Of a stretch of DNA of 61,789 nt, positions 23,584-42,582 are shown in pieces; position 1 is the stretch's first letter, and each line of letters opens with the position of its first letter. Below the pieces are notes generated by a model, which made no database searches, was not told the origin of the DNA, and was given only the letters and a program-made list of their open reading frames with translations. The stretch is from Chromobacterium piscinae (GTDB lineage Bacteria > Pseudomonadota > Gammaproteobacteria > Burkholderiales > Chromobacteriaceae), in NCBI RefSeq assembly GCF_021129175.1, contig NZ_JAJOHV010000083.1:1-61789 (forward strand). The letters run 5' to 3'. The translations under genes were made by a program, and so were the position numbers.

Positions 23584-24984
23584 TCAGCACTCGACGATGT
23601 TGACTGGCACCTCGATCACGTTGATCGCCAGGCCGCCGCGCGCGGTTTCCTTGTACTTGGTGCTCATGTCCATGCCGGTGTCGCGCATGGTCTTGATCAC
23701 GCGGTCCAGCGACACGAAGTGCTGGCCGTCGCCGCGCAGCGCCATCCGCACCGCGTTGATGGCTTTCACCGAGGCCATTGCGTTGCGTTCGATGCAGGGC
23801 ACCTGCACCAGGCCGCCTACCGGATCGCAGGTCAGGCCCAGATTGTGCTCCATGCCGATTTCGGCGGCGTTTTCAACCTGTTCCGGCGTGCCGCCCATCA
23901 CTTCGCACAGCGCGCCGGCGGCCATGGAACAAGCCGAGCCCACCTCGCCCTGGCAGCCGACTTCGGCGCCGGAGATGGACGCGTTCAGTTTGAACAGGAT
24001 GCCGATGGCGCCGGCGGTCAGCAGGAAGCGGACGATGCCGTCGTCGCTGGCGCCCGGCACGAAGCGGGCGTAGTAGTGCATCACTGCAGGAATGATGCCG
24101 GCGGCGCCGTTGGTGGGGGCAGTGACCACGCGGCCGCCGGCGGCGTTTTCTTCATTGACGGCCAGCGCGTACAGGTTGACCCAGTCCATCACCGTCAGCG
24201 GGTCGCGCATCGCGGCTTCCGGCGAGGCCAGCAGCTTGCGGTGCATGTCGGCGGCGCGGCGCTTCACCTTCATGCCGCCCGGCAAGATGCCTTCGCGCTC
24301 GCAGCCGCGTTTCACGCAGGCCTGCATCACGTTCCAGATGTTGAGCAGGCCGGCGCGCACTTCTTCCTCGCTGCGCCAGGACAGCTCGTTCTCCAGCATG
24401 ATCTGGCTGATGCTCTTGCCGTGACGCTGGCACAGAGCCAGCAGCTCGGCCGCGCTCTTGAACGGGTGCTTCAACTCGGTGACGCCCGGCGGGACGAAGC
24501 CGGCATCGATCGCAGCCTCATCCACCACGAAGCCGCCGCCCACCGAGTAGTAGGCGCGCTTGGACAGGCTTGCGCCGGCCGCGTCGAAGGCTTCGAAGAT
24601 CATGCCGTTGGGGTGGTAGGGCAGGGTTTTCTTCTTGTGCAGGATCAGGTGCTCGCCTTCGACGAAATCGATCTCGCGCTTGCCCAGCAGCTTCAGTTTG
24701 CGCTGCTCGCGGATGGCGGCCAGCATGCCGTCCACGGCATCGGTGTCGACCAGATCAGGCTGTTCGCCCTGCAGGCCTAGCAGCACCGCCACATCGGTGC
24801 CGTGGCCCTTGCCGGTGGCGCCCAGCGAACCGAACATCTCGGCGCTGACGCGGACGGTGGCGTCCAGCTGGCCGTCCTTTTCCAGGCGGCTGATGAATTG
24901 GCGGGCGGCGCGCATCGGGCCCACGGTGTGGGAGCTGGACGGGCCGATGCCGATTTTGAACAGGTCGAAAACACTGATTGCCAT
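23584..24984 (-). CDS. sdaA: L-serine ammonia-lyase, single-chain iron-sulfur type
   Basis: A 466-residue enzyme that deaminates L-serine to pyruvate using a [4Fe-4S] cluster rather than PLP. The N-terminal SDH beta domain has [15 protein letters not shown] and the alpha domain has [36 protein letters not shown] and [21 protein letters not shown]. The cysteines in those last motifs are the expected cluster ligands. One chain with both domains is the usual E. coli-like form. ATG 24984 begins [19 protein letters not shown], matching the family start. Confidence 0.96.
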
Positions 24985-25498: not shown

Positions 25499-27190
25499 AT
25501 GAACTTTGCCTCCAAAGCCGCCCGCCTGGGCGGCTTGTTGTTTCCCGCCTGGGTTTGCGCCGCCACCGTGCCAGACGTGGTGCTGCAACAGAACGATCAA
25601 CAACTCCGCCACCAGCAGCAACAACTGGAACAGCGCCGCCAGGAACTGCAGCAGCGCCCGGACGTATTCTCTCCACCGCCGGCCGCCGCGCCGCAGACGG
25701 TTGTTCCCGCTTCCGACGCCCAACACTGCTTCGCCCTGACACGGGTGGCGCTGGAAGGCGCGCCGGCCGGCTGGCTGGCTTGGCTGCAGCCGCTGGCTGA
25801 CGCAGGCCTGGCCGGCTGCGTCGACCTGGCCCGGATCAACGGCCTGACGGCGGCGCTGACCAACGAGATGGTGGCGCGCGGCTTCGTCACCAGCCGGGTC
25901 TACCTGCCGGAACAGAACCTGCGCGGCGGCCAGCTGCGGCTGGCGGTGGTGCCGGGCCGCATCCACGCGATCCGGCTGAAGGCGGACGGCAGCGATATCG
26001 GCTTGCGCAGCGCTTTCCCGGCCGGAGCGGGCGACATCCTCAATGTGCGCGACCTGGAGCAGGGTTTGGAGCAGCTGGGCCGGGTGCCGGGCCAGCAGGC
26101 GACGATGGAGCTGACGCCGGCCGACGCGCCGGGCGAGAGCGATGTGGTGGTGGATAGAAGCGGCGGCCGCTTGCTGTCCGGCATGCTGTCGCTGGACGAT
26201 TCCGGCCAGAATGCCACCGGGAGGCTGCAAACGACCGGCAGTTTGACGCTGGGCGGCGCTACAGGCCTCAACGACGCGCTGTCGCTGTCCTGGAGCCAGG
26301 ACGCCGAGCATCTGGCGCATCCGCTGAGCCAGTCGGCGTCGCTGTCATGGCTGCTGCCGCTGGGCAACTGGACCGGTTTTTTCAGCTACAGCGGCTTCGC
26401 CTACCACCAGACGGTGCGGGGGGTGAACCAAAGCTTCACCTCCAGCGGCCACAGCCGCAACACGCTGCTGTCGCTGTCGCGGCTGCTGCGGCGCAATCAG
26501 AGCGGCAAGACCGAGTTGAAGCTGAGCCTGACGCGCAAAGCGTCGCGTAGCTTCGTCGAGGATGCCGAGGTCGTGCAGCAGCGGCGCGACCTGACCATCG
26601 CCGGGCTAGAGCTCAGCCATCGCCAGTATCTGGGCGAGGCGGTGCTGGATGGCTCGATCAGCTACCAGCGCGGCATCGGCGCCTGGGGCGCGCAGCCGGA
26701 TACGCTGGCGGCGCAGGGCGGGCCGACCGCCCGCCACGAGCTTTACCAAGGCAGGCTGGCGCTGCAACTGCCGCTGCATGTCGCATCGCAGACGCTGCGC
26801 TGGAGCAGCGAGCTGCGTGGCCAGTACAGCCCGGACCTGTTGATGTCCAGCGAGCAGTTCTCTCTCGGCTGCCGCTGCACAGTGCGCGGCTTCAACGGCG
26901 AGGCGCTGGTGGGGCAGAGCGGCTATTACCTGCGCAACGAGCTGAGCTGGCCGCTGCCGCCAGCCGGTCCGCTGGCGCTGGAGCCCTACCTGGGGCTGGA
27001 TGCCGGCCAGATCGCGCGCCCGGCCTACGATGTTGGTCCGGTCCGCAGCCTGTCCGGCTGGGCCGCCGGCCTGCGCCTGAGCTTGGGTGGCCATCTGTCC
27101 GCCGAACTCAGCCACGAGCGCGCGCTGCACCAGCCGCAGGGCTGGGATCGTCCCGCCATCACCCATTTCTCGATCACCGCGCAGTGGTGA
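25499..27190 (+). CDS. cdiB: Two-partner secretion outer-membrane transporter CdiB (ShlB/FhaC family)
   Basis: A 563-residue Omp85-type transporter that exports CdiA across the outer membrane. It has a signal peptide (cleavage near residue 22, after VCAA). Next comes a Gln/Arg-rich plug helix (about 28-50), a POTRA_2 domain (about 75-150, with GFVTSRVYLPEQNL) and a beta-barrel to the C-terminus. VRGF at residues 462-465 matches the conserved barrel-lumen loop motif. The start ATG 25499 has no strong ribosome site. It lies 36 bases before cdiA, the usual B-A-I order of E. coli-type loci. The gene is GC-rich, although its upstream region is AT-rich. Confidence 0.92.
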   Translation: MNFASKAARLGGLLFPAWVCAATVPDVVLQQNDQQLRHQQQQLEQRRQELQQRPDVFSPPPAAAPQTVVPASDAQHCFALTRVALEGAPAGWLAWLQPLADAGLAGCVDLARINGLTAALTNEMVARGFVTSRVYLPEQNLRGGQLRLAVVPGRIHAIRLKADGSDIGLRSAFPAGAGDILNVRDLEQGLEQLGRVPGQQATMELTPADAPGESDVVVDRSGGRLLSGMLSLDDSGQNATGRLQTTGSLTLGGATGLNDALSLSWSQDAEHLAHPLSQSASLSWLLPLGNWTGFFSYSGFAYHQTVRGVNQSFTSSGHSRNTLLSLSRLLRRNQSGKTELKLSLTRKASRSFVEDAEVVQQRRDLTIAGLELSHRQYLGEAVLDGSISYQRGIGAWGAQPDTLAAQGGPTARHELYQGRLALQLPLHVASQTLRWSSELRGQYSPDLLMSSEQFSLGCRCTVRGFNGEALVGQSGYYLRNELSWPLPPAGPLALEPYLGLDAGQIARPAYDVGPVRSLSGWAAGLRLSLGGHLSAELSHERALHQPQGWDRPAITHFSITAQW

Positions 27191-27226
27191 GCCCGCTGCC
27201 CTGTCCCGTCTTGTTGAGCTGACATC

Positions 27227-30200
27227 ATGAACAAACACCTTTATCGGATCATCTTCAATCAATCCCGCGGCCAACTGATGGTGGTGCAGGAAGACGCCTG
27301 CGGACAGGGCAAGGGCAACGGCGCCGAGGGCGTCGCCGCCACGCTGGCGGCGGCGTGCAAGGCATTCTCGCTGCGCCTCAGCGTGCTGTTGATCGGCCTG
27401 GGATTGGGCAGCAGCGCCCTGGCGGCCGACATCATCGCCGATCCCAACGCCGCGGCCGGCAAGCAGCCGGGCGTGATCCAGTCGGCCAATGGCCTGCCGG
27501 TGGTGCAGATCGCCGCGCCCACCGCCGCCGGCGTGTCGCACAACCAGTACCAGCAGTTCAACGTCGGCCCCGGCGGCGCGCTGCTCAACAACAGCGCCAC
27601 CCTCGTCAACACCCAGCTGGCCGGCTACATCAGCGGCAACCCCAATCTGAAGAACGGCAGCGCCCGCATCATCCTCAACGAAGTGACGCAGGCGAATCCG
27701 TCGCAGCTGCGCGGCTACCTGGAGGTGGCCGGCCAGCGCGCGCAGGTGGTGATCGCCAACCCCTGGGGCATCACTTGCAGCGGCTGCGGCTTCATCAATA
27801 CCCAGCAGGCCACGCTGACCACCGGCGCGCCGCAGCTGAACGCCCTGGGCGCGCTGACCGGCTACCAGGTGGCCGGCGGCCGGGTCAGCATAGACGGCGC
27901 CGGCCTCAACGCCGCCAACGTCGACAGCTTCGCCATCATCAGTCGGGCAGTGTCGGTCAACGCCAGCCTGTACGCGCAGAAGCTGGACCTGGTGCTGGGC
28001 CGCAACCAGGTGGACGCTGCCACGCTGGCGGCCCAGCCGTTGGCGGGCCGCCCGAGCGACGCCCCGGCCTTCGCGCTGGACGTGGCGCAGCTGGGCGGCA
28101 TGTACGCCAACGCCATCAAGCTGGTGGGCACCGAGAAGGGCGTCGGCGTCAATCAGCTGGGCACCATGGCGGCCCAGGCCGGCGATTTGCAGCTGACCAG
28201 CGCCGGCGACTTGATCCTGCGCGGCCAGACCCACAGCCAGCAGAACCTGATCCTGCAGGCCGACGGCCAATTGCGGCACGATGGCGTCACCCGCGCCGAG
28301 GGAGCGATCCAGGCCGACATCGCCGGCCAGACCGCCCTGCACCAGGCGCTCAGCGCCGGCGGCGACCTCACGCTGAACACCGGCGCGCTGCAAGGCGACG
28401 GCGCGCTGGCCGCCGGCGCCCAGGCCGACGGCAAGCTCAGCGACCACGGCCGGCTGGCGGTGGCCAGCGCCGGTATGCTGCAACACAGCGGCCAGCTGCT
28501 GGCCGGCGGCGACGTTAGTCTGAAGGCTGGCCAGGCCGACCTGTCCCAAGCCACGGTCAGCGCCAGCCACGGCGCGTTGGAGATCCGCGCCGCCGGCGAC
28601 GTGAACGCGCAGCAGGCCCGGCTGAGCGCCGCCGGCGCCGCCCGGCTCACCCTCGATGGCCAGCTCGACAACCGTAGCGGCCAGCTCGCCGCCGCCCAGG
28701 TGGACCTCCAATTGGGCGCGCTGGACAACCGCCAGGGCAAGATCGTGCAGACCGGGCAAGCCGACTCGGTCTGGCGCATCAACGGCCAGGCCGATAACCG
28801 TCAGGGCCTGCTCGCCAGCGCTGGCCATGATCTGAAGCTGCAAAGCGGCGATCTGGACAATCGCGGCGGCGAAATCAGCCACGCCGGCGCCGGCGCGCTG
28901 CGCCTGAGCGCGGACGCGCTCGACAACCGCGAACAAGGCCGCATCGCCAGCGACGGCCGGCTGGACGCGCAGGCGGCGCAACTGGACAACCGCCAGGGCC
29001 GGCTGGTCGGCGTCCTGTCGGCGTCGGTCGACGCGCGCCAGCAGTTGAATAACGATGGCGGCGTGTTGGGCAGCGACGGCAAGCTGGACCTCGCCGCCGG
29101 CGCGCTCGACAACGGCAGCGGGCTGATTCAGTCCGGTCAGGACCTGCAGCTCACGGCTAATAGCCTCACCAACGCCGACAAAGGCCAGATTCTGGCGCTG
29201 GGCAAGGACGTTGCCAGCAAGGTGGACGTCAGCGGCGAGCTGCGCAACCAGGGCAAGGTCGCCGGGAATGCCGACCTGACCGTCAACGCGGCGACCATCG
29301 ACAACAGCAAGGGCGCCTTGCAGGCGGCGGCTAGCTTGAATCTTACCAAGCAAAGCAGCCTGATCAATGACGGCGGCTATATCGCCGGCCAGAGCCTGAA
29401 GCTGAACGCCGATTCGCTGAGCAACCAGGCGGGCGAGATCTATGCCCAGCAGCAGCTGACGAGCCAACTGAAGACCCTCGACAATGCCAAGGGCAGCCTG
29501 ATCGGCGGTCAGGGCGTTGACCTCACCGTCAGCACCCTGTTGCATAACGACGGCGTGGTCGGCAGCGATGGCCAAGTGAAGCTGAGCGCCGGCAAGCTGG
29601 ACAATGCCGCCGGCACCATCCAATCCGGCAAGGATCTGCAGCTTACCGCTAGTAGCCTCACCAACGCCGACAAGGGGCAGATCCTGGCGTTAGGCAAAGA
29701 CGCGGCGAGCAAGGTGGACGTCAGCGGCGAACTGCATAACCAGGGCAAGGTGGCCGGCAACGCCGACCTGACCGTCAACGCCGCCAGCATCGATAACAGC
29801 AAGGGCACGCTGCAGGCGGCCGGCCATCTGGAGCTGAGCAAGCAAACCAGCCTGACCAACGATGGCGGCCATATCGCCGCCCAGAATCTGCAACTGAACG
29901 CCGATAGCCTAAGCAACCAGGCCGGCGAGATCTACGCCCAGCAGCAGCTGAGCAGCCAACTCAAGACCCTAGACAACAGCAAAGGCAGCCTGATCGGCGG
30001 CCAGGGCGTCGACCTGACGGCGACCGACAGCCTGCACAACGACGGCGTGGTCGGCAGCGACGGCCAAGTGAAATTGAGTGTCGGCACGCTGGAGAACGCT
30101 GCCGGCACCATCCAGTCCGGCAAAGACTTGCAGCTCACGGCTAATAGTCTGAGCAATGCCGACAAGGGCCAGGTTCTGGCCCTCGGCAAAGATGCGGCGA

Positions 30201-33200
30201 GCAAGGTGGACGTCAGCGGCCAGCTGCGTAACCAGGGCAAGGTCGCTGGCAACGCCGATCTGACCGTCAACGCGGCGACCATCGACAACAGCAAGGGCAC
30301 GCTGCAAGCAGCCAGCCATCTGGAGCTGAGCAAGCAAACCAGCCTCACCAACGACGGCGGCCACATCGCCGGCCAGAGTCTGAAACTGAATGCCGACAGC
30401 CTGAGCAACCAGGCCGGCGAGATCTATGCCCAGCAGCAACTGAGCAGCCAACTGAAGACGCTGAACAATGCCCAAGGCAGCCTGATCGGCGGCCAGGGCG
30501 TCGACCTCACCGTCAGCAGCCTGCTGCGCAACGACGGCGTGTTGGGCAGCGACGGCCAAGTGAAGCTGACCGCCGGCGCGCTGGAGAACGCCGCCGGCAC
30601 CATCCAGTCCGGCACGGACCTGCAGCTCACCGCTAGCAGCCTCACCAACGCTGACAAGGGCCAGATCCTGGCGCTGGGCAAGGACGCCGCCAGCACTGTT
30701 GACGTCAGTGGCGAGCTGCACAACCAGGGCAAGCTGGCCGGCAACGCCGACCTGACGGTCAGTGCCGCCAGCATCGACAACAGCAAGGGTACCTTGCAAG
30801 CGGCCAGCCATCTGGAGCTGAGCAAGCAAACCAGCCTGACCAACGATGGCGGCCATATCGCCGCCCAGAATCTGCAACTGAACGCCGATAGCCTAAGCAA
30901 CTTGGCCGGCGAAATCTATGCCCAGCAACAACTGAGCAGCACGCTGAAGACCCTCGATAATGCCAAGGGCAGCGTCATCGGCGGCCAGGGCGTCGACCTC
31001 ACCGTCAGCAGCCTGCTGCACAACGACGGCGTGGTCGGTAGCGACGGCCAAGTGAAGCTGAGCGCCGGCACGCTGGAGAACGCCGCCGGCACCATCCAAT
31101 CCGGCAAGGACCTGCAGCTTACCGCTAGCAGCCTGAGCAACGCCAACAAGGGCCAGATCCTGGCATTGGGCAAGGATGTGGCGAGCAAGGTGGACGTCAG
31201 CGGCCAGCTGCGTAACCAGGGCAAGGTGGCCGGCAATGCCGACCTGGCCGTCAACGCGGCGACGATAGACAACAGCAAGGGCACGCTGCAGGCGGCCAGC
31301 CATTTGGACCTGAGCAAGCAAACCAGCCTGACCAACGATGGCGGCCACATCGTCGGCCAGAGTCTGCAACTGAAGGCCGACAGCCTGAGCAATCAGGCCG
31401 GGGAGATCTACGCCCAGCAGCAACTCACCAGCCAACTGAAGACGCTGAATAACAGCCAGGGCAGCCTGATCGGCGGCCAGGGCGTCGACCTCACCATCAG
31501 CACTTTGCTGCACAACGACGGCGTGGTGGGCAGCGATGGCCAAGTGAAGCTGAGCGCCGGCGCGCTGGAGAACGCCGCCGGCACCATCCAATCCGGCAAG
31601 GACCTGCAGCTCACCGCTAGCAGCCTCACCAACGCTGACAAGGGCCAGATCCTGGCGCTGGGCAAGGACGCCGCCAGCACTGTTGACGTCAGCGGCGAGC
31701 TGCACAACCAGGGTAAGCTGGCCGGCAATGCTGATCTGACCGTCAACGCGGCGACCGTCGACAACAGCCAGGGCACTTTGCAGGCGGCTAGCCATCTGGA
31801 ACTGAGCAAGCAAGCCGCGCTGACCAACGACGGCGGTCATATCGCAGGCCAGAGTCTGAAACTGAATGCTGACTCGCTCAGCAATAAGGGCGGTGAGTTG
31901 TATGCCCAAGGCCAACTGACCAGCCAACTGAAGAACCTCGACAACAGCCAAGGCAGCCTGATCGGTGGCCAAGGTGTAGACCTCACCGTCAGCAGCCTGC
32001 TGCACAACGACGGCGTGGTCGGTAGCGACGGCCAAGTGAAGCTGAGCGCCGGCAAGCTGGAGAACGCGCAGGGCACCATCCAGTCCGGTAAGGAGCTGCA
32101 ACTGACGGCGGCTTCGCTGACCAACTCCGACAAGGGCCAAATCCTGGCGCTGGGCAAGGATGTCACCAGCAAGGTGGACGTCAGCGGCGAACTGCATAAC
32201 CAGGGCAAGATCGCCGGCAACGCCGATCTGACCGTCAACGCCGCCAGCGTCGACAACAGCAAGGGCACGCTGCAAGCGGCCAGCCATCTGGAGCTGAGCA
32301 AGCAAACCAGCCTCACCAACGACGGCGGCCACATCGCCGGCCAGAGTCTGAAACTGAATGCCGACAGCCTGAGCAACCAGGCGGGTGAGATCTATGCCCA
32401 GCAGCAGCTGACGAGCCAACTGAAGACCCTCGACAACAGCAAGGGCAGCCTGATCGGCGGCCAGGGCGTCGATCTCACCGCGAGCACTCTGTTGCATAAC
32501 GACGGCGTGGTCGGCAGTGACGGCCAGGTCAAGCTGACGGCCGGCACGCTGGAGAATGCGCAAGGCACGATTCAATCGGGTAAGGATTTGCAGCTCAGCG
32601 CATCGAGCCTGACCAACGCCGACAAGGGTCAAATCCTGGCGTTGGGCAAAGACGCTGCCAGCAAGGTGGACGTCAGCGGCGAGTTGCATAACCAGGGCAA
32701 AGTCGCCGGCAACGCCGATCTGACCGTCAATGCGGTGACCATCGACAACGCCAAGGGTACGCTGCAAGCGGCCAGCCATCTGGAACTGAGCAAGCAAAGC
32801 ACGCTCACCAACGATGGCGGCCATATCGCCGCCCAGAATCTCAATCTCAAAACCGATACCCTCAGCAACCAGTCTGGCGACATCCGCCAGATCGGCGCCG
32901 GCGAGGCCAAGCTGAAGATCGGCCAGGCCTTCCACAACCAGCAGGGTCAATTGCTGAGCAACGGCGGGCTGACGCTGGACGCCGGCCAGCTCGACAACCG
33001 CCAGGGCACGCTGGGCAGCCAGGGCGCGCAGGCCCTGACCGTGCGGCAGGATCTGAACAACCAGGGGGGCACGCTGGCCAGCGGCCAATCGCTTAGTTTG
33101 ACCTTGCAGGGCGCGCTGGACAACCAGAAGGGGATAGTGCAGGGCGACAGCTTGCAACTGGACGCCGCCAGCCTGGATAACCGTGGCGGCGGCATCAAGG

Positions 33201-36200
33201 CGCTGGGCGCCGGCGACAGCCGGATTCAGCTGGGCGGCAAGCTGGATAACTCCACTGCCGGCGCGCTGGCCGCCAACGGCAATCTGACGCTGAGCGCCAA
33301 TCAACTAGATAACAGCGGCAGCGTGCTGCAAAGCGCCGCCACGCTGGATGTCCAACTGAAGCAGGACGCGCAAAACGGCGGCGGCGCGCTGCAGGCCGGC
33401 CAACTGAAACTCAGCGCCGCCAGCCTGGGCAACCAGCATGGCCAGATCGGCCAGGCCGGCGCGGGGCTGGCCACGCTGGCCATCGGCGGCCAGATCGACA
33501 ACAGCCAGCAGGGCAAGATCACTTCCGGCGGCCAGCTGCAAGTGACGGCCGGCGACCTCAACAACAACCATGGCGTGCTCAGCAGCCAGGGCGACTTGAC
33601 CCTGAGCGGCAAGGCGCTGAACAACCAGCAGGGCACGCTGGGCAGCAACGGCACGCTGACCTTGAACGCCGGCAGCCTGGACAACAGCGGCGGCCTGCTG
33701 CAAGCCGGCCAGACCTTGCAACTGGACAGCGGCAGCCTGCGCAACGCCGGCGGCAAGGTGCTGGCGCTGGGCGTCGGCGACAGCCGACTGACCGTGACCG
33801 GCCAACTGGCCAACGGCGGCCAGATCGCCGGCAACGGCAACTGGCAGCTGAGCGCGCAGGGCCTGGATAACGGCGGCGGCAGCGTCTACGGCCAGCGCAA
33901 TCTCGCCATCGACACGGTGTCGCTGGCCAACGCCGGCAGCCTGCTGGCGGGGCAAGACCTGTCGCTGAAGCTGCAGGGCGACTTCGTCAACGCCGCCGGC
34001 ACCCAACTGCAAGCCAACCGCAACCTCAGCATCAGCGTCAGCGGCAACCTGGTCAACAACGGCCAGCTGCAAAGCAGCGGCAACCTCAGTCTGTCTGGCG
34101 TCAACTGGACCAATAACGGCAGCGTCAACATCGGCGGCACGCTGAGCACCCAGCTCAGCCAGAGCCTGGTCAATGCCGGCAGCCTGGGCGCGGGCGCGCT
34201 GGACATTCACGCCGCCAGCCTCACCAACACCGCCTCCATCACCGCCGGCGACATCGCCATCCAGGCTGGCAGCCTGGACAACAGCGGCGGCAAGGCGCTG
34301 CTGGCCTCGGCCGGGGGCATGGCGCTGAATATTGGCGGCACGCTGAATAACCATGATGGTGCCTGGTTATATAGCCAGGGCGATATGCGGATAGGCCAAT
34401 CCGGCGCGACGGTGGGGCAGGTGGTGAATCACATCGCGACCTTGCAGTCGGATGGGAATATGTTTATCGAAGCTGGGCGGGTGAGTAATGAGTCGAATTC
34501 GGTAGCAATACGCCAATTAAATAGTAATACAGTAGAAACCAAAGAGCTCTACAACTTCCCTTTAGCTGCAGTCGGTGAAGGTGCATGCCATCATTCGAGT
34601 TGTGATACGCTATTTTCCCCTTATGTGGGGAGATTTAACTTTCGAAATGGAGTGGACGAATGGGTTGTTTACTCTCCATGTGTAAATTCAAATCATTGCA
34701 GTTCCACTCCGTCAATGAGGGTGCGATATTCTGTAGTAAGTGACGACAAGAACAAACATTTGCTAACAGTAATAAGGAGGGAGCTTTCTCCTTATCAGGA
34801 TTCTCTTTTGTCGCCAGAAAAGGTGGAGAGTTATTTTTACATTAATAATGCTCCGAGTGGGGTGTTTGATCTCAACGCTTTTAATAAAATCCCAGGGTGG
34901 GGTGGTGCGTATGATTCGTACATGTTTCTTATTGGATTTGATCCTAATAAAAATCTAATGCCTGCGCCTGGAGATAATTGGAATTCAGTGGCGATGAGAT
35001 TGGTTTCGGTTAGTAAGTCTGGTTTGGAGGCCTCTGAGAAGGTATTTGTTAATAATGTCAGGCCAGACCCTAAGAACATGGCTATTCGCCCTTCTATGGG
35101 TAGTTTTCAAAGCCTGAATTTAACAGGGGTTGATGAATTTTTTCCTGTGGCTAACTATGGGGAGAGTCTAAGGCGTGAAATAAAAACAGAAACAATTGAT
35201 GTTGCCGAATTGGTGGGAAGCCCATCTAGAATGTTAGCTGGTGGTGATATTCATATCTCTGGTGGGGAGGTTTCTAATCGGTACAGTTCAATTGCTGCAG
35301 GAGGGAGCGTTTCGGTTGGGTCTGGAAGTGTTCAGAATATTGGCCAGGAATTAAAGAAAACTATAACCACCACCCAATCCTCTACTGTTAACCGATATGA
35401 TAACTTTGCAGATGCATGGAACTGCATGCAGCGTGAAGGGGCTTGGTGTACCACGGTTGTTACTTCTGCAGCGACTACAACGTCAACAGTAATCGGTTCC
35501 CTAGACGCCACCGTCGCCTCCAACCAACACCTAAACCTGCAAGCCCCCTCCATCGTCAACGGCAAGGACGCGGCGCGGGTGAATGTGTCCACGGTAACCG
35601 GCAATGCCGTCAATAACCAGTCGGCGGTGAGCCAGGCGCAAGGGCCGGCGATCAAGGGCGCAGGCCAGCAGGCTGCGGCCACCGGCCAGGCCTTGCAAGG
35701 CGCGGTGGGCCAGGCACAAGGCGCGCAGTTGAATGGCGCGCTGTCCAGCATGGCGGGCCAGGCCTTGGGCGGGGCGGCGGCGCAAGGAGAGGCGGGCAAG
35801 GTCCTGCAGGGCGCGCTTGGCCAGGTCCAGGGCGCGCAGTTGAATGGCGCGCTGTCCGGCGCGGATGGCCAGCAACTGAAGAACGGCGGGGTCGATGCCA
35901 CCGCCGGCGGCCAGTTGGCCAAGACCTATTCGCCGGCACCGGCCACGCAGCAGGTGACGATGTCCGCCGGCGGCGCCAAGGCCGCCAATCCGGTGGCGAA
36001 CGGCTATGCCGTGCCGGACAACGGCCTGTTCCACGCCAAACCGGCACCGCAGCAGCCCTACCTGGTGGAAACCAATCCGCAATTCACCCAGTACAGCAAT
36101 TTCATCTCGTCCGACTACTTGCTCAAGCAACTGAATTACGACCCCAGCAAGGTGGAAAAGCGCCTGGGCGACGGCTTCTACGAACAGCAGCTGGTCACCC

Positions 36201-39200
36201 GCGCCGTCACCGACATGACCGGCAAGCGCTTCCTGTCCGGCTACGGCAGCGCGATGCAGCAATACCAGCAGCTGATGAGCAACGGCGCGCAGTACGCCAA
36301 GCAGTTCCAACTGACGCCGGGCATGGCGCTCTCGGCCGATCAAATGGCCAAGCTCACTTCCGACATGGTGTGGCTGGTGAAGCAAAACGTGGGCGGCCAG
36401 GACGTGCTGGTGCCCATGGTCTATCTGGCCAATGCCGATCAAAAGTCTCTGCGCGGGCAGGGCGCGGTGCTGGCCGGCAACAGCATGAGCCTGCTGGCCA
36501 GCGGCGATCTGGTCAACACCGGCACGCTGAAGTCCGACACCACGCTGCTGGCGCAGGCCAACAACATCCGCATCGAAGGCGGCAAGGTGCAAGCCGGCGG
36601 CGATCTGGGGCTGTCCGCCGCGCAGAACCTGACCATCACCGACGACAGCCAGCACAGCCAGGCGGGCAGCAGCGTCAAGGCCGGCGGCGACTTGCAGCTG
36701 CAGGCCGGCAATGATCTGAAACTGCGGGCGGCGGCGATCGACGCGGCAGACAACGCCAGCCTGCAGGCCGGCCACGATCTGGACATTCTCAGCCGCGAAA
36801 CCCGTTACGACCTGGGCGGCAGCGGCTGGTACAGCAGCTACCAATATCAGCAGGCAGACCACGTCGGCAGCCAGCTCAATATCGGCGGCAGCCTGGCGCT
36901 CGCCGCCGGCAACGACCTGACCCTGTCTGGCAGCGCCGCCAAGGCCGGCGGCAGCGTGCTGGCCAGCGCCGGCGGCAGCCTGACCTTGGCGTCCACGCTG
37001 GACAGCAAGCATGGCGCGGGCAGCTGGTGGGGTGGCGGCTACGATACCTTGAGCCAAACCCATAACGCCTCGCTGCTGCAAGGCGGCGGCGATGTATTGC
37101 TGAAAGCCGGCGGCGACCTGAGCCTGAGCGGCTCGTTCGCGCAATCCACCGGCGGCAGCCTGACCGCTCTGGCCGGTAAGCAGCTGACCATGCAAAGCGA
37201 AGTCAACACCAACCATGACATCGGCTACGGCTGGGGCAACAGCCACAACTGGCAAGCCGACAACCTGGCCGTGGCCAGCCTGGCCGGCAAGGGCGACCTG
37301 CAACTGCATGCCGGCGGCGACGCGCTGCTGAACGGCGCCAGCCTGGCCAGCGGCGGCAAGCTGGCCCTGTCCGCCGGCAACGACATCAAGCTGGGCGGGG
37401 TGGCGACGGAAAGCCGCAACGACAATACTTGGGGCGAGACCATCCGCAATAACTACGACCTCACCCAGCACGGCGTCGCCGCGCATGGCGAGGGCGGATT
37501 GATCCTGCAGGCGGGGCGCGACATCTCCACCCAGGCCGCCAGCCTGACCAGCAATGGCCAGGAAGCGCTGGTGGCCGGGCGCGACGTCAACCTCGGCAGC
37601 GCCGAGGAGCGGCACAGCGACTACAGCAAGACCGTGCACCATTCCAGCGGCTGGTTCAGCAGCACCACCACCACCGACATCGTCGCCCACGACAGCACGC
37701 ACGAAGCCGGCAGCACGGTATCGGCCGACACGCTGATCCTCAAAGGCCAGCGCGACATCAACATCCACGCCAGCCAGGTGGCGGGCAGCGGCGACGTGAC
37801 GCTGGATGCCGGCCGCAATCTCAACATCACTTCCGGCACCGATACCAGCCGCCTGTTCCAGTACCACAAAGAAGAGACATCAGGCCTGTTCTCCGGCGGC
37901 GGCCTGGGCTTCACCATCGGCAGCAAGGAATTGACGCAGCAAATGGACGGCGCGGGCACCACCCAGAGCCAGAACCGCAGCCTGGTGGGCAGCATAGGCG
38001 GCAACCTGAACATCAAGACCGGCGACACCCTCACCCTGCAAGGCAGCGACGTCACCGCCGGCGGCAACCTGTATCTGGATACTAAGAAGCAGAACCTCGA
38101 CGTGGCGGTGGACACCTGGCACAGCGTGCAGAAGACCGTCAGCAAGTCCAGCGGCCTGACGCTGCAGCTCACCAGCCCGCTGATCAACGGTTTGCAGGCG
38201 ATGGAGTCCGCCACCGAAACTGCGCTGAAGAGCAAGGATGATCGCGTCAAGGCGCTGTCCGCCGCCACCGCCGCGCTGGCCGGCTACAACAGCTACACCG
38301 CCTACCAGCAAGCGATGAGCGACGCCGGCCAGAAGACCAAGGGCGGCATCCAGTTGAGCCTGACCGTTGGTGGCAGCCGCAGCGAAAGCACCACCGTCAG
38401 CGACAGCCATAACGAAAGCGGCAGCTTGCTCAAGGCCAGCGGCAATGTGATGGATCTGGCGCACGGCGCGGGCAAGGACAGCACCATCACCGCCAAGGGG
38501 GCGCAGTTCATCGCCGGCAAGGATTTGACCTTGCAGGCCGAAGGCGACATCACCCTGCTGGCGGCCAAAAGCACTAGCAGCGAACATACCACCAGCAGCG
38601 CCAGCAGCGGCGCGGTGGGCGTGGCGATTGGCTTCCAGGAGAACAGGCCGCAACTTGGCTTTACCGCCAACGGCAGCCTCAGCCGCGGCAGGGTGGATGG
38701 CAACGGCAGCCAATATCAGCTGAGCGAACTGAATGCCGGCGGCAAGCTGAACCTGCAGTCCGGCGGAAACCTCACGCTGCAGGGCATCGCCAGCGGCCAG
38801 CAGGTAGTGGGCGATATCGCCGGCGATCTCAAGATTGATAGTCTGCAGGACACCAGTACTTATCACAGTCTGAATCAGTCGATCAGCGGCAATGTGACCA
38901 TCGGGCCTATCGGTTCGGGCGGGAGCGTCAGCCTCAGCCAGCAGAAAATGGATGCCGACTACGCCAGCGTGCAGCGCCAGTCCGGCATCCAGGCCGGCGA
39001 CGGCGGCTTCCAGCTGACGGTGAAGGGCATTACCGCTCTGAACGGAGCGGAAATCGCCAGCACCGACAAGGCGGCGCAGGACGGCAAGAATAGCTTGCAA
39101 ACCGGCGCATTGGTGCTGAAGGACATCGACAACCATGCCGATTTCACCGCCAGCAGCATCAGTGTCACCGCCGGCAGCAGCGGCGTAACCGGCATGGCCA

Positions 39201-40810
39201 TGGCCGCGTCGGACCACGACAACAGCACCACCCGCGCCGGCATCAGCGCCGGCAGCCTGACCATCACCGACAACGCGCTGCAGCAGGAGAAAACCGGCCA
39301 AACGGCTGAACAGGCGGCAGCCTCGGCCAACCGCGACGTCAGCACTGGCCGCGACGGCAGCGGCAAGCTGGCCAACAACTTCAACGCCAGCGAAGTGCAG
39401 GGCTTGTTTGACGCCGCCAACGCCTTGAACCAGCAAGTGGGCACCTTCATGGCCAATAAGGCTGCGGAGGCCAAGGCGGCAGCCGACGCCTTGAAAGATG
39501 CCGACCCCAACAGCCCGGATTACGCCAGCAAGAAACAGGCCGCGGACGATACCGCCAAGTGGGCCCCGGGCGGCAGCTATAGCCAGATTCTCACAGCGGT
39601 CACCGCCGGAATTGGCGGCAACCTGGCCAATGGCCTGACCGGCATGGCGCAGAATGCCGGCATCGCCTACCTGCAGGGATTGGGCGCGCAGGAAGTCAAG
39701 GCGCTGGCGGATGATCTGGAACGGGCGCAGAGCAGCGATCCGGATCATGCGGACAAGAAGCCGGAAGGCGAAGTCGTGCGCGCGGTGCTGCATGCCGCCC
39801 TGGCTTGCGCCGGCGCGGAAGCCAGCGGCCAAAGCTGCGGAGCGGGCGCGGCGGGCGGCGCGGCCAGCGTGGCGCTGAACAACGCGCTGGATAAGCTGCA
39901 GCATACCGATGCCGACAAGATGACGGCGGAGGAAAAGTTGCAGCGCGAGAATCTGGTCAACGGTTTGTTGACGGGGTTGTCGACTGCGGCTGGCGGCGCT
40001 GAGACGGCAGCGACGACGGTGAATGCGGCGAAGACTGAGATGGAGAATAATGCTCTTACCTTTGCAAGGGGTACAAGCGAAAGAGTCAAAGTCGCAGCGA
40101 CAGAGGTTGCAGGTTTGCTTGGAAAGGGTAAGGGGCAGGTTAGTCGAAAAGATATCGATAATGAGCTTAATAGACTGAAGAAACTGATTGCCAAGGGGGA
40201 TTTGTCCTCTCAGGAGGAGCAAAATATTGGTGCTCTTTGGATGTCGGTTGTTCAGCGTGCATCCCTTGAAAATCTCATGACCCCAAATGAGATTGTTGGA
40301 TCCAGAGCATTTATGATGGCTGCTATTTCCTCCATGGCTTTTAGTGGTGGTGGAAATGGGGGAGGGGTAGTTAGTAAGGAGACTGAAGTAGAGCTTCCGA
40401 GGACTAGAGGTACTAGAACTGCATATGGAGTTTCAGAGGGGGAGGCAAGTGTAATGAGTACCGTTGCTCTGAAACAAAGGTTGTATAAAAAAGAATTGGA
40501 TGCGATTGCTGCGCAAGATGGTCGTTTGGCAAAAGTTATTTCCGGCTCTGCAGATGGTTATAAGAATTTTGGGATAGGCACTGGTAGTGTGGAGGATGCA
40601 AATCGACTAGGTCAGCTTTGGGTCGGGGATGGAGCAAGACCAATGGGGGGCGTGCCTGGTGGCTTGGTTAGTGCGGATGGAACTAGGTCATATCGACCTC
40701 CAGCTGAAAAAAACGGTCGTTTTGCAATTACCGGTGTTCAGGCTAATTTTGAAATGAAAGATAGCAATGGGAAGGTGATCAGAAATGGTCATCTGAATGT
40801 GAGGCAATGA
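27227..40810 (+). CDS. cdiA: CdiA-type giant toxin-delivery protein (two-partner secretion exoprotein)
   Basis: A 4527-residue surface filament that should deliver its C-terminal toxin into touching cells. In order: ESPR extended signal (MNKHLYRIIFNQSRGQLMVV), cleavage after residue 66; TPS domain (about 67-330) with NPNL at 138-141; FHA-1 repeats (to about 2418), including eight 492-base units; an AT-rich putative receptor-binding region (about 2418-2760); an Ala/Gln/Gly linker; a YP-like domain (about 2944-3070) with LGDGFYEQQLVTRAV; FHA-2 repeats; a pretoxin domain ending MENN (4272-4275), a VENN variant; and a 252-residue toxic C-terminus. The last three bases overlap the immunity gene. 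The CdiA reading rests on domain order; a plain FHA-type adhesin is the main alternative. Confidence 0.9.
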   Translation: MNKHLYRIIFNQSRGQLMVVQEDACGQGKGNGAEGVAATLAAACKAFSLRLSVLLIGLGLGSSALAADIIADPNAAAGKQPGVIQSANGLPVVQIAAPTAAGVSHNQYQQFNVGPGGALLNNSATLVNTQLAGYISGNPNLKNGSARIILNEVTQANPSQLRGYLEVAGQRAQVVIANPWGITCSGCGFINTQQATLTTGAPQLNALGALTGYQVAGGRVSIDGAGLNAANVDSFAIISRAVSVNASLYAQKLDLVLGRNQVDAATLAAQPLAGRPSDAPAFALDVAQLGGMYANAIKLVGTEKGVGVNQLGTMAAQAGDLQLTSAGDLILRGQTHSQQNLILQADGQLRHDGVTRAEGAIQADIAGQTALHQALSAGGDLTLNTGALQGDGALAAGAQADGKLSDHGRLAVASAGMLQHSGQLLAGGDVSLKAGQADLSQATVSASHGALEIRAAGDVNAQQARLSAAGAARLTLDGQLDNRSGQLAAAQVDLQLGALDNRQGKIVQTGQADSVWRINGQADNRQGLLASAGHDLKLQSGDLDNRGGEISHAGAGALRLSADALDNREQGRIASDGRLDAQAAQLDNRQGRLVGVLSASVDARQQLNNDGGVLGSDGKLDLAAGALDNGSGLIQSGQDLQLTANSLTNADKGQILALGKDVASKVDVSGELRNQGKVAGNADLTVNAATIDNSKGALQAAASLNLTKQSSLINDGGYIAGQSLKLNADSLSNQAGEIYAQQQLTSQLKTLDNAKGSLIGGQGVDLTVSTLLHNDGVVGSDGQVKLSAGKLDNAAGTIQSGKDLQLTASSLTNADKGQILALGKDAASKVDVSGELHNQGKVAGNADLTVNAASIDNSKGTLQAAGHLELSKQTSLTNDGGHIAAQNLQLNADSLSNQAGEIYAQQQLSSQLKTLDNSKGSLIGGQGVDLTATDSLHNDGVVGSDGQVKLSVGTLENAAGTIQSGKDLQLTANSLSNADKGQVLALGKDAASKVDVSGQLRNQGKVAGNADLTVNAATIDNSKGTLQAASHLELSKQTSLTNDGGHIAGQSLKLNADSLSNQAGEIYAQQQLSSQLKTLNNAQGSLIGGQGVDLTVSSLLRNDGVLGSDGQVKLTAGALENAAGTIQSGTDLQLTASSLTNADKGQILALGKDAASTVDVSGELHNQGKLAGNADLTVSAASIDNSKGTLQAASHLELSKQTSLTNDGGHIAAQNLQLNADSLSNLAGEIYAQQQLSSTLKTLDNAKGSVIGGQGVDLTVSSLLHNDGVVGSDGQVKLSAGTLENAAGTIQSGKDLQLTASSLSNANKGQILALGKDVASKVDVSGQLRNQGKVAGNADLAVNAATIDNSKGTLQAASHLDLSKQTSLTNDGGHIVGQSLQLKADSLSNQAGEIYAQQQLTSQLKTLNNSQGSLIGGQGVDLTISTLLHNDGVVGSDGQVKLSAGALENAAGTIQSGKDLQLTASSLTNADKGQILALGKDAASTVDVSGELHNQGKLAGNADLTVNAATVDNSQGTLQAASHLELSKQAALTNDGGHIAGQSLKLNADSLSNKGGELYAQGQLTSQLKNLDNSQGSLIGGQGVDLTVSSLLHNDGVVGSDGQVKLSAGKLENAQGTIQSGKELQLTAASLTNSDKGQILALGKDVTSKVDVSGELHNQGKIAGNADLTVNAASVDNSKGTLQAASHLELSKQTSLTNDGGHIAGQSLKLNADSLSNQAGEIYAQQQLTSQLKTLDNSKGSLIGGQGVDLTASTLLHNDGVVGSDGQVKLTAGTLENAQGTIQSGKDLQLSASSLTNADKGQILALGKDAASKVDVSGELHNQGKVAGNADLTVNAVTIDNAKGTLQAASHLELSKQSTLTNDGGHIAAQNLNLKTDTLSNQSGDIRQIGAGEAKLKIGQAFHNQQGQLLSNGGLTLDAGQLDNRQGTLGSQGAQALTVRQDLNNQGGTLASGQSLSLTLQGALDNQKGIVQGDSLQLDAASLDNRGGGIKALGAGDSRIQLGGKLDNSTAGALAANGNLTLSANQLDNSGSVLQSAATLDVQLKQDAQNGGGALQAGQLKLSAASLGNQHGQIGQAGAGLATLAIGGQIDNSQQGKITSGGQLQVTAGDLNNNHGVLSSQGDLTLSGKALNNQQGTLGSNGTLTLNAGSLDNSGGLLQAGQTLQLDSGSLRNAGGKVLALGVGDSRLTVTGQLANGGQIAGNGNWQLSAQGLDNGGGSVYGQRNLAIDTVSLANAGSLLAGQDLSLKLQGDFVNAAGTQLQANRNLSISVSGNLVNNGQLQSSGNLSLSGVNWTNNGSVNIGGTLSTQLSQSLVNAGSLGAGALDIHAASLTNTASITAGDIAIQAGSLDNSGGKALLASAGGMALNIGGTLNNHDGAWLYSQGDMRIGQSGATVGQVVNHIATLQSDGNMFIEAGRVSNESNSVAIRQLNSNTVETKELYNFPLAAVGEGACHHSSCDTLFSPYVGRFNFRNGVDEWVVYSPCVNSNHCSSTPSMRVRYSVVSDDKNKHLLTVIRRELSPYQDSLLSPEKVESYFYINNAPSGVFDLNAFNKIPGWGGAYDSYMFLIGFDPNKNLMPAPGDNWNSVAMRLVSVSKSGLEASEKVFVNNVRPDPKNMAIRPSMGSFQSLNLTGVDEFFPVANYGESLRREIKTETIDVAELVGSPSRMLAGGDIHISGGEVSNRYSSIAAGGSVSVGSGSVQNIGQELKKTITTTQSSTVNRYDNFADAWNCMQREGAWCTTVVTSAATTTSTVIGSLDATVASNQHLNLQAPSIVNGKDAARVNVSTVTGNAVNNQSAVSQAQGPAIKGAGQQAAATGQALQGAVGQAQGAQLNGALSSMAGQALGGAAAQGEAGKVLQGALGQVQGAQLNGALSGADGQQLKNGGVDATAGGQLAKTYSPAPATQQVTMSAGGAKAANPVANGYAVPDNGLFHAKPAPQQPYLVETNPQFTQYSNFISSDYLLKQLNYDPSKVEKRLGDGFYEQQLVTRAVTDMTGKRFLSGYGSAMQQYQQLMSNGAQYAKQFQLTPGMALSADQMAKLTSDMVWLVKQNVGGQDVLVPMVYLANADQKSLRGQGAVLAGNSMSLLASGDLVNTGTLKSDTTLLAQANNIRIEGGKVQAGGDLGLSAAQNLTITDDSQHSQAGSSVKAGGDLQLQAGNDLKLRAAAIDAADNASLQAGHDLDILSRETRYDLGGSGWYSSYQYQQADHVGSQLNIGGSLALAAGNDLTLSGSAAKAGGSVLASAGGSLTLASTLDSKHGAGSWWGGGYDTLSQTHNASLLQGGGDVLLKAGGDLSLSGSFAQSTGGSLTALAGKQLTMQSEVNTNHDIGYGWGNSHNWQADNLAVASLAGKGDLQLHAGGDALLNGASLASGGKLALSAGNDIKLGGVATESRNDNTWGETIRNNYDLTQHGVAAHGEGGLILQAGRDISTQAASLTSNGQEALVAGRDVNLGSAEERHSDYSKTVHHSSGWFSSTTTTDIVAHDSTHEAGSTVSADTLILKGQRDINIHASQVAGSGDVTLDAGRNLNITSGTDTSRLFQYHKEETSGLFSGGGLGFTIGSKELTQQMDGAGTTQSQNRSLVGSIGGNLNIKTGDTLTLQGSDVTAGGNLYLDTKKQNLDVAVDTWHSVQKTVSKSSGLTLQLTSPLINGLQAMESATETALKSKDDRVKALSAATAALAGYNSYTAYQQAMSDAGQKTKGGIQLSLTVGGSRSESTTVSDSHNESGSLLKASGNVMDLAHGAGKDSTITAKGAQFIAGKDLTLQAEGDITLLAAKSTSSEHTTSSASSGAVGVAIGFQENRPQLGFTANGSLSRGRVDGNGSQYQLSELNAGGKLNLQSGGNLTLQGIASGQQVVGDIAGDLKIDSLQDTSTYHSLNQSISGNVTIGPIGSGGSVSLSQQKMDADYASVQRQSGIQAGDGGFQLTVKGITALNGAEIASTDKAAQDGKNSLQTGALVLKDIDNHADFTASSISVTAGSSGVTGMAMAASDHDNSTTRAGISAGSLTITDNALQQEKTGQTAEQAAASANRDVSTGRDGSGKLANNFNASEVQGLFDAANALNQQVGTFMANKAAEAKAAADALKDADPNSPDYASKKQAADDTAKWAPGGSYSQILTAVTAGIGGNLANGLTGMAQNAGIAYLQGLGAQEVKALADDLERAQSSDPDHADKKPEGEVVRAVLHAALACAGAEASGQSCGAGAAGGAASVALNNALDKLQHTDADKMTAEEKLQRENLVNGLLTGLSTAAGGAETAATTVNAAKTEMENNALTFARGTSERVKVAATEVAGLLGKGKGQVSRKDIDNELNRLKKLIAKGDLSSQEEQNIGALWMSVVQRASLENLMTPNEIVGSRAFMMAAISSMAFSGGGNGGGVVSKETEVELPRTRGTRTAYGVSEGEASVMSTVALKQRLYKKELDAIAAQDGRLAKVISGSADGYKNFGIGTGSVEDANRLGQLWVGDGARPMGGVPGGLVSADGTRSYRPPAEKNGRFAITGVQANFEMKDSNGKVIRNGHLNVRQ
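29040..32890 (+). repeat. Tandem 492-base repeats inside cdiA (about 7.8 copies)
   Basis: The anchor encoding L(T/S)N(A/S)(D/N)KGQ(I/V)LALG begins at 29165, 29657, 30149, 30641, 31133, 31625, 32117 and 32609, each exactly 492 bases (164 codons) after the last. Neighbouring units are nearly identical over long stretches. They form part of the FHA-1 beta-helix stalk. Confidence 0.93.
34480..35505 (+). other. AT-rich non-repeat module in cdiA, putative receptor-binding region
   Basis: Codons about 2418-2760 lose the Asn/Gly/Gln beta-helix repeat pattern and become AT-rich, with four cysteines near its start (CHHSSC, and a CVNSNHC segment). GC-rich repeat-like sequence returns after about 35505. 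In E. coli CdiA the receptor-binding domain lies between FHA-1 and the YP domain, the same place. I infer a swapped specificity module. Confidence 0.6.
40052..40807 (+). other. CdiA toxic C-terminal module (after MENN)
   Basis: The 252 codons after MENN are AT-rich, unlike the upstream protein. The first half, with a hydrophobic AFMMAAISSMAF stretch near 40308-40345, fits a cytoplasm-entry domain. The last about 80 residues contain LGQLWVGDGARP, VSADGTRSYRPP, GVQANFE and NGHLNV. I recall that order of motifs from the ends of other FHA- and RHS-type polymorphic toxins, but I cannot name an activity. Conserved His and Lys/Arg would suit a nuclease; that is a guess. Confidence 0.65.
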
Positions 40811-41157
40811 AAGCAAATATTAAGTCTGTTGATTTGGGTGGTGTTTGTAATGTTGAGGGATTTACGCCAGAAGATCCTTACTGTTTTAGTATATGGCTTG
40901 TCTGTGTAATTGGAGCCGAGAATAGTGCTGGTGGTGATTGCTTTCGTGTTAATGTATGTACGCCTAGTTGGCTGCAGGCGGCTGCAAAAATGCCTACTTG
41001 GGGTAGACATATGCTGATTGTTAATAAATATGATTTTCCGCAGATTAGGCAGACTATTGAAAAAGCTTTGCTGGAAATAGATGCACCTGACTGGGATGGT
41101 GTTGCTAGGAAAGTTTCGAAGGTAATGGAGTGGGAATTTGAGGATTATGTGAATTAA
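40807..41157 (+). CDS. cdiI: CDI immunity protein, Imm8-like
   Basis: A 116-residue cytoplasmic protein that should neutralise the adjacent CdiA toxin. It opens MKANIKSVDLGG, has CFRVNVCTPSWLQ and GRHMLIVNKYDF, and ends KVMEWEFEDYVN. From memory these match the Imm8 family of polymorphic-toxin immunity proteins. Its ATG overlaps the cdiA stop by four bases (ATGA), so the pair is translationally coupled. It is AT-rich like the toxin end, which shows they travelled together. No terminator is obvious after it. Confidence 0.82.
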   Translation: MKANIKSVDLGGVCNVEGFTPEDPYCFSIWLVCVIGAENSAGGDCFRVNVCTPSWLQAAAKMPTWGRHMLIVNKYDFPQIRQTIEKALLEIDAPDWDGVARKVSKVMEWEFEDYVN

Positions 41158-41169
41158 AGGGAGGTGGGG

Positions 41170-41248
41170 GATACAGTCTTTCACGTCAAACAGGGCCGTA
41201 AGTTGGGCTAGGCTTGCGAAGGGCCGTAGATACCGTCTTTCACGTCAA
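41170..41248. repeat. Direct repeats just after cdiI
   Basis: GATAC(A/C)GTCTTTCACGTCAA occurs at 41170-41189 and 41229-41248 (one mismatch in 20). AGGGCCGTA follows the first copy at 41192-41200 and precedes the second at 41220-41228. They mark the sharp change from AT-rich to GC-rich sequence at the right edge of the CDI locus. They may be a recombination scar or repeat element. Confidence 0.7.
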
Positions 41249-41319
41249 GCGGCTCTTGCATAGTCGGTCCGGTAAGGTTGGCGTGTTTTCAGCCCTCCGG
41301 CAGCGAAGAAGGCCCTCCG

Positions 41320-42237
41320 CTACTGGAACGGGAAGCTCAGCCGCAGATTGAAAGAGTCGCCGCCGACATCGCTGGTGGTGCGGAAGCCGTGGTTGTAGAT
41401 CGCCATCAGCTTCACTTTGCCAAGCTGATAGCCAAGCAGCGGGCCGATGCCGTAGTTGCTGGCGCGGCAGCCGCCGGTCTGCGCGCAGGCGGCCGCGCCG
41501 CTGCCGGAGTCGTCGCTCAGCTGGTTTTCCTGGTAGCCGCCCAGGCCTATCGTCCATTTGCCTATGGTCTTGGCGACGGTGTAGTCGATGGCCAGCTGTT
41601 GACCGGACTTGTACTGGGTGTCCGGGTTGCGGAAATTGTAGGCGTAGGTGGCGTCCATGCTCAGGTTCCAGCCATTGTGCAGCCAGCTCAGCGCCAAACC
41701 GGGCTGCAGTGTCCAGAAGCCGTTGGCGGCGCCGAGGTAGGTGCCGTTCGGCAGCCGGCGCGGCGATGAGCTGCCGGTGGGCAGGTATACCGCCAGGCTG
41801 GCTTTGAGGTGGAGGTTGTTGGGCAAGGCCCAGGACAGCTGCCCGGGAACCAGGATGGTGTTGAAGGTGCCCCAGCGTCCATTGGGGGGCAGGCCATCGC
41901 CGCTAAGCGTGGTGTAGTCGATGGGCTGGGCGATGGCCACGGCGTAGTCGGCGCCGAACACCTTGAGTCCCGTCGACCACAGCACTTCCGGCAATTCGAT
42001 CAGCGCTCTGACCCGCAGGCCGGTCTTGTCGCCGTTGTGGTCGTATTTGTCCACCCAGGTCCAGTAGTTGTTCAGCACGCCATAGACGCCTTTCGGCGGC
42101 AGCACGCCTGCGGCCAGCCCTTCGTTGACGCCGCGCAGATGAGGATCCCACAGCTCCTGACCATTGGCGCTGGAGTGCGGCAATAGGCAGGCGATGGCGA
42201 CGGACGCGGCCTGCGCGATCATTTTTGCTGGTTTCAT
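41320..42237 (-). CDS. Outer-membrane protein of the SphA/phenol-degradation (MetA) family
   Basis: A 305-residue protein with a signal peptide (start MKPAKMIAQAASVAIAC, cleavage near residue 25) and a beta-barrel pattern of alternating polar and hydrophobic residues ending in Phe-Gln. The sequence GVYGVLNNYWTWVDKYDHNGDKTG and repeated amphipathic strands fit the Phenol_MetA_deg (PF13557) family of outer-membrane channels for hydrophobic compounds. A disulfide could form between the Cys residues in the AAACAQTGGC loop. ATG 42237 was chosen because the longer frame from 42336 would place 33 unlike residues before the signal peptide. Substrate unknown. Confidence 0.75.
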   Translation of the reverse strand: MKPAKMIAQAASVAIACLLPHSSANGQELWDPHLRGVNEGLAAGVLPPKGVYGVLNNYWTWVDKYDHNGDKTGLRVRALIELPEVLWSTGLKVFGADYAVAIAQPIDYTTLSGDGLPPNGRWGTFNTILVPGQLSWALPNNLHLKASLAVYLPTGSSSPRRLPNGTYLGAANGFWTLQPGLALSWLHNGWNLSMDATYAYNFRNPDTQYKSGQQLAIDYTVAKTIGKWTIGLGGYQENQLSDDSGSGAAACAQTGGCRASNYGIGPLLGYQLGKVKLMAIYNHGFRTTSDVGGDSFNLRLSFPFQ

Positions 42238-42582
42238 CCTGAAAGTGTCCCTGTTCGGTTTTGCTTGGTGGTTGGCGGCATGCTGGGCAACTGTATGCAG
42301 GCTTGGCGTTAGGCAAACTGAGTATAGGCTGCGCATTCCAAAGAGGTGGCGCTTGCGAGTAGGCCATGATCATGGATTGTGGACAGAGGGGCATGCATGG
42401 ACGGAATGTCCTCCCCGCATGCGTGGGAGAGCGGATTTTCCGGCGTGGACGGATCGGAAAATGTCGGTAAAAGGAATATCATGTGCCGGGATGCGAATGC
42501 GCATGAAAAGCGTTGTAGTTAGCAAACCCGGCCCCGCGCAGGGGGCGGTTGAATGAGTAGACCATTAATGAGGGAAGCAGGG
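42238..42582. other. Intergenic region with a 12-base palindrome
   Basis: This 345-base gap separates divergent genes. CCATGATCATGG at 42364-42375 is a perfect palindrome and could be an operator. The open frames in it have no ribosome site or recognisable product. Nothing else is seen. Confidence 0.45.

Follow-up and report, generated by a model that had tools for sequence, protein, structure and literature searches.

A complete contact-dependent inhibition-type locus in Chromobacterium piscinae with a probable Ntox7-like toxin tip and two blocks that differ from close relatives

A 61,789-nucleotide stretch of Chromobacterium piscinae DNA (assembly GCF_021129175.1, contig NZ_JAJOHV010000083.1, forward strand), hereafter the window, carries three adjoining genes on its plus strand: cdiB (25499..27190, 563 amino acids), cdiA (27227..40810, 4527 amino acids) and cdiI (40807..41157, 116 amino acids). 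With a probability of roughly 0.8, they are best explained as a complete contact-dependent inhibition (CDI) locus of the E. coli type, in which CdiA ends in an Ntox7-like, probably RNA-cutting tip, CdiI would block this tip, and blocks of the locus would be exchanged as cassettes. An earlier note on this DNA, made from its letters alone, had proposed one CDI unit in the gene order B-A-I; the coordinates and strand of all three open reading frames were confirmed, and the unit is supported as a locus for two-partner secretion to which an Imm8-family gene is linked. The stop codon of cdiA (TGA, 40808-40810) overlaps the start codon of cdiI (ATG, 40807-40809) as ATGA.

CdiB, which adjoins cdiA, is a TpsB/Omp85-type outer-membrane transporter with two POTRA domains and a beta-barrel (Pfam POTRA_2, E = 2.6e-21; POTRA_3, 1.2e-18; ShlB, 2.7e-95), and copies 96% and 93% identical to it were found in two relatives of the genus. 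Profile searches proposed in the earlier note were run for CdiA and Imm8, and both gave matches. CdiA begins with an ESPR extended signal peptide (residues 1-44, 27227..27358, plus strand as for the other parts of cdiA; 1e-10) and a TPS secretion domain (residues 68-330, 27428..28216; 3.9e-53), followed by FHA-1 and FHA-2 repeats represented by 31 stretches of Fil_haemagg (1.9e-86), by fil_hemag_20aa stretches and by six stretches of Fil_haemagg_2 (3.3e-52), the best of the last kind at residues 3714-3885 (38366..38881). The MENN motif, a VENN-type boundary, lies at residues 4272-4275 (40040..40051), and the same motif and boundary were found in locus L023. The proposed domain order stands for ESPR, TPS, FHA-1 and FHA-2 by Pfam and for MENN by its location; the pretoxin domain lacks such backing, as the Pfam pretoxin-VENN model had no match in CdiA at E<=1, and this label therefore rests on motif, position and relatives. 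The pretoxin region is kept in 10 of the 19 genus genomes, including that of the window. A Tyr/Pro (YP) segment, recognised by eye, presumably occupies approximately 35915..36196 and is 88-100% conserved in the relative G027. CdiI matches Imm8 (PF15586) over its full length (1-114 of 114; 2.5e-33; 115 bits, the cut-off being 27), so that the 116-residue protein does resemble an immunity family, a point on which the earlier note had staked its proposal. A further candidate source on Imm8 (PMC11062931) was set aside as irrelevant, as the matching text concerned Imm88.

The earlier note had called CdiA unusually long, which finds no support among its relatives. Part of the length comes from a tandem FHA-1 array in which a 492-bp unit occurs about 7.8 times (29059..32884, Tandem Repeats Finder), and in genus relatives the open frames that contain this pretoxin region reach 8428, 4584, 4322, 4046, 3940 and 3844 amino acids, counted from stop to stop, with shorter ones as well; by this comparison 4527 amino acids is mid-range and ordinary for the genus. 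The 8428-residue frame is a congeneric CdiA-type open frame at G017:C1:1666086-1672394.

Two parts of CdiA stand out when residues 2300-4527 are compared, in blocks of 60 residues, with five genus relatives (G027, G028, G026, G022 and G017): identity in all five is 13-48% over residues 2420-2779 and 0-38% from residue 4280 on. Outside these two blocks, CdiA of G027 is 80-100% identical, and the clean two-block picture rests on this genome, because the other relatives are lower and uneven elsewhere (20-32% at residues 2780-2899 in G026 and G022; 35-38% at residues 3620-3859 in G026). The first variable block coincides in position with the receptor-binding domain in the published CDI scheme (Cuthbert 2022, figure legend), and residues 2420-2780 (34484..35566) are accordingly regarded as a probable receptor-binding region; parts of it were found in 12 of the 19 genus genomes, that of the window included, and no relatives of it were found in the plasmid collection. 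The second block follows MENN, after which protein identity falls in five of five relatives, and forms the C-terminal part of CdiA (CdiA-CT). Both blocks are low in G+C content (0.448 over 34400-35550 and 0.456 over 40059-41250, versus 0.631 for the window). DNA identity to G027 is 92.8% over 35488-40058, stops seven bases past the MENN codons and resumes at 41290, and by comparison to a relative 97% identical in its pretoxin region, the left joint of the CdiA-CT module is pinned to a few bases; the border of this module is at MENN.

CdiA-CT consists of a first part, a putative cytoplasm-entry domain by position (40052..40471), which had no Pfam or NCBIfam match and none in the plasmid collection, and a toxin domain of about 110 residues (40472..40807), for which no model matched in Pfam, NCBIfam or PHROGs. 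Relatives of the toxin domain were identified by tblastn in 10 of 72,556 plasmid-collection records from six genera, namely Pantoea (four), Neisseria gonorrhoeae (two, in records of 2.2 Mb), Paraburkholderia, Rhizobium, Phytobacter and Methylobacterium. Eight of the ten loci were examined, the two left out being from the same species as included ones with near-equal scores, and an Imm8-like gene lies 3' of the toxin in all eight by tblastn; it is annotated as immunity 8 or Imm8 in six, and the tblastn matches in the two unannotated ones have E = 2e-10 (L004) and 1e-12 (L009). One of the carriers (L010) appears Rhs-like, judged by eye from its upstream sequence. Two more copies in the viral-contig collection, one in a CdiA-like frame (L033) and one a C-terminal piece only (L052), likewise precede Imm8-like genes; on the former contig the Ntox7-like/Imm8 pair is followed by a second, orphan-module-like frame containing VENN (L033:3642-4901). 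The toxin profile matched two of 369 class genomes, that of the window being one of them, and Imm8 was found in one of 61 family genomes, again the window's own. The scan of genome contigs gave a chance-like match only, and none of the phage records matched. Two candidates were rejected as chance-like and left out of all toxin counts: a Planctomycetota contig (L002; 47 matched residues and no Imm8-like match) and one of the 368 other class genomes (L013; 7.7e-6, where inspection by eye of the open reading frames viewed showed none that looked like a toxin).

Alignment of nine toxin domains gave 12 invariant columns, including N85 and N98 and just one histidine. The segment DGTRSYR is the only motif of the type DGx+xhR within the 4527 residues of CdiA; the motif is exact in seven of the nine toxins, the window's included, with one residue changed in the other two, and it arose in 935 of 200,000 shuffles of the toxin sequence. 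Ntox7 was described as a predicted BECR fold with a 'DGx+xhR, N motif', for which Imm8 is 'the predominant immunity protein across a wide phyletic range' and whose carriers include FilH repeats, RHS repeats and MafBN (Zhang et al. 2012, PMC3482391). As the published motif with its conserved asparagine and the usual Imm8 partner both fit, the tip is called Ntox7-like, an assignment that follows motif and partner rather than a profile of the original clade, and it probably cuts RNA. The tip, which the earlier note had called divergent, differs from those of genus relatives and matches the published motif of a described clade. Among CDI toxins, most structures appear to be of the BECR or PD-(D/E)XK type, and BECR members are hard to identify from sequence alone (Cuthbert 2022), a remark with which the present case agrees.

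Several points weigh against this reading, and the first of them slightly lowers confidence in it. In structural comparison of the tip model, PDB 5t86 (a CDI complex of E. coli A0 34/86, whose chain A is taken as the toxin from its residue numbers) gave 17% identity at a root-mean-square deviation of 3.2 A, tied with unrelated entries, and it was not recovered for the tip by sequence profile. A whole-word literature search for 'Ntox7' returned the prediction of Zhang et al. 2012 as the sole source, with no characterised member or experiment found, and the same work also lists Imm8 with Tox-EHHH nucleases. The locus could then be the same with a tip that is not an RNase, such as a DNase or some other kind of enzyme also neutralised by Imm8-type proteins; this is an appreciable minority possibility, set against which are the fit of motif and immunity pairing to Ntox7, the single invariant histidine where several are described for Tox-EHHH, and the shared pattern of R, R, K, Q, N and H, which would suit a metal-independent RNase. 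FHA repeats, moreover, make up most of CdiA, and two further TpsB-like genes in the genome of the window (G000:C61:8690-10333 and G000:C6:19138-20544; 38% and 31% identity to CdiB) indicate that other two-partner secretion loci probably exist there. The protein could on these grounds be mainly a two-partner-secretion adhesin or haemagglutinin that merely carries the tip and leaves neighbours uninhibited; this is very improbable given the overlap of the immunity gene with cdiA, the MENN boundary, the joint difference of CdiA-CT and immunity gene from those of the nearest relative, and the occurrence of the toxin domain after an Rhs-like frame.

Under the CDI reading with an RNA-cutting tip, CdiB would export CdiA, whose FHA-1 repeats would form a long stick, and residues 2420-2780 would bind a receptor on an adjacent cell, probably that of a relative; inhibition would be contact-dependent. 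The 252 C-terminal residues after MENN would be released inside the target cell; there the final ~110 residues, the Ntox7-like domain, would probably cut RNA, and in the producer CdiI would bind and block the toxin domain. The receptor-binding block and the CdiA-CT/cdiI module would each have been exchanged as a cassette.

How the second of these modules is exchanged is a separate matter, on which the 3' joint bears. Two scars occupy the DNA that separates the end of cdiI (41157) from the conserved flank (41290). One is a 34-bp remnant of a REPIN/MITE-like hairpin repeat of about 132 bp (41188..41221, plus strand; 94% identical to a copy 3' of cdiI in G027); the other is left from the 3' end of an IS110-family transposase (41220..41293, minus strand) and is near-identical to DNA ending a Transposase_20 reading frame in L072. 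The two scars directly abut; IS110-type elements can insert into REP-like palindromes. In G027 the equivalent stretch spans 5.9 kb and includes seven copies of the repeat, 454-825 bp apart from start to start (L034:8984-13126). Between them are small low-GC frames, of which one is a PT-HINT pretoxin and another, by eye, a piece of a PAS-type gene that is whole in L072; one interval has no frame of at least 60 amino acids. A long hairpin is the predicted fold of the repeat (-48.1 kcal/mol, z -12.1), which was found in at least 15 of the 19 genus genomes, with at least 28 matches in the genome of the window, a number that overstates copies because both strands of the palindrome are counted. In that genome, a Y1_Tnp gene (IS200-like, RAYT-type; L061:5956-6474, minus strand), a candidate mobiliser, lies between repeat pieces. 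Given the fold, the spread over the genus and the pieces flanking this gene, the repeat looks like a REPIN-type element.

Twenty regions were chosen for their element matches, mostly clusters and hence not a random sample. The 27 intervals between neighbouring pieces, drawn from 14 selected loci (16 of 22 loci had two or more pieces; L061, where the interval is the transposase gene itself, and L066, which repeats the element pattern of L054, were left out), have a median GC of 0.45, and 24 are at or below 0.51 (two-decimal values). Of 5000 stretches drawn at random from 20 of the examined loci, all lying over 1.5 kb away from any element, 7.4% are that low in GC. Elsewhere in the genome of the window, a low-GC insert between two pieces holds an Mrr-type nuclease (L057:977-3853), and an AAA ATPase resembling NsnB/AriA-type defence proteins lies beside a single piece (L058:5402-8199).

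At a second chromosomal site, at least one right-hand anchor gene lies within the examined stretch in 7 of the 19 genus genomes. Both anchors are present in four of them (G000, which is the genome of the window, G027, G018 and G028; sequences L056, L063, L065 and L071, sites L074-L077), all with element pieces and inserts of 1.0-3.8 kb at a GC of 0.44-0.51. Element pieces occur at both insert ends in three of the four; in G028, the final 1.5 kb before the anchor extends beyond the last piece. At this site G021, G024 and G020 each have a single anchor and lack the element, and in the other 12 genomes no anchor is in reach, among them G026, which has the element, and G012, where only 1.3 kb was available. 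Six intervals from the second site were compared, two short ones (in G000 and G028) being left out, and have just one 42-bp piece in common; comparisons of whole sites gave additional short matches, both at the elements and next to them.

A further reading has the repeat as the right joint and the conserved MENN-coding DNA as the left joint of toxin-immunity cassettes that are loaded, stored as an element-separated array (the seven copies of G027) and collapsed to a single module (the window, with its element/IS110 scar), the same element framing toxin/immunity-type and defence-like inserts elsewhere. This remains a tentative and rather unlikely proposal, weakened by the end in G028 outside the last piece and by the PAS-type piece. 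The rival view, that the cassette arrived when conserved DNA beside MENN and the conserved 3' flank underwent simple homologous recombination, the repeat and IS110 scars being bystanders, has about an even chance of being correct: identity to G027 is high up to MENN and again from 41290, a VENN-recombination model exists (Poole 2011), and the repeat is spread over the genome, also beside defence-like genes. It accounts less readily for a repeat directly 3' of cdiI in both the window and G027, for its separation of the array frames in G027, and for the second site, where the inserts that four genomes carry next to or between copies of the repeat differ in sequence. The element may help to exchange cassettes, or it may only gather in tolerant low-GC islands.

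The locus is flanked 5' by a serine dehydratase gene on the opposite strand (23584-24984) and 3' by a 'phenol MetA' type gene (41320-42336), and no tRNA and no Rfam match at the gathering threshold was found in the window. All 19 genus genomes have the serine dehydratase gene. Judged by coordinates, roughly 0.5 kb separates it from cdiB in G027 and G028, and in G021 a CdiA-type frame is no more than 2 kb away.

Compared with known systems, the locus shares with E. coli-type (VENN) cdiBAI its gene order, overlapping immunity gene, variable probable receptor-binding domain and CT, and, with a putative pretoxin domain, the order ESPR-TPS-FHA1-receptor-binding domain-YP-FHA2-pretoxin-(V/M)ENN-CT (scheme in Cuthbert 2022). 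It differs in having MENN for VENN and no Pfam pretoxin-VENN match, in a receptor-binding domain with relatives in the genus and none in the plasmid collection, and in a CT type for which no characterised member was found. With the Ntox7 clade (Zhang et al. 2012, PMC3482391) the tip shares DGx+xhR, the following N, the Imm8 partner and FilH and RHS carriers, whereas no Ntox7 model matched in Pfam and the fold is predicted. CdiI shares with Imm8 the full-length match and WEF near the C-terminus, no difference being seen, and is 20-40% identical to the other eight aligned members. The ~132-bp hairpin with its long inverted ends and a Y1_Tnp (RAYT-like) gene between element pieces is presumably akin to REPIN/REP-RAYT systems; unlike those, it lies here next to and in between low-GC inserts of toxin/immunity type or defence-like content, an association for which a non-exhaustive literature search found no report.

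The type of locus is known, and on sequence comparison it departs sharply from its close relatives in the probable receptor-binding part and in the toxin tip. With an Ntox7-like/Imm8 pair joined to complete delivery genes, the locus would offer a clean way to test an RNase clade predicted in 2012. Recombination models for change of toxin and immunity were left unsettled in Poole 2011, and if the repeat does form the right-hand joint, it would be relevant to the joint change of toxin and immunity in CDI strains.
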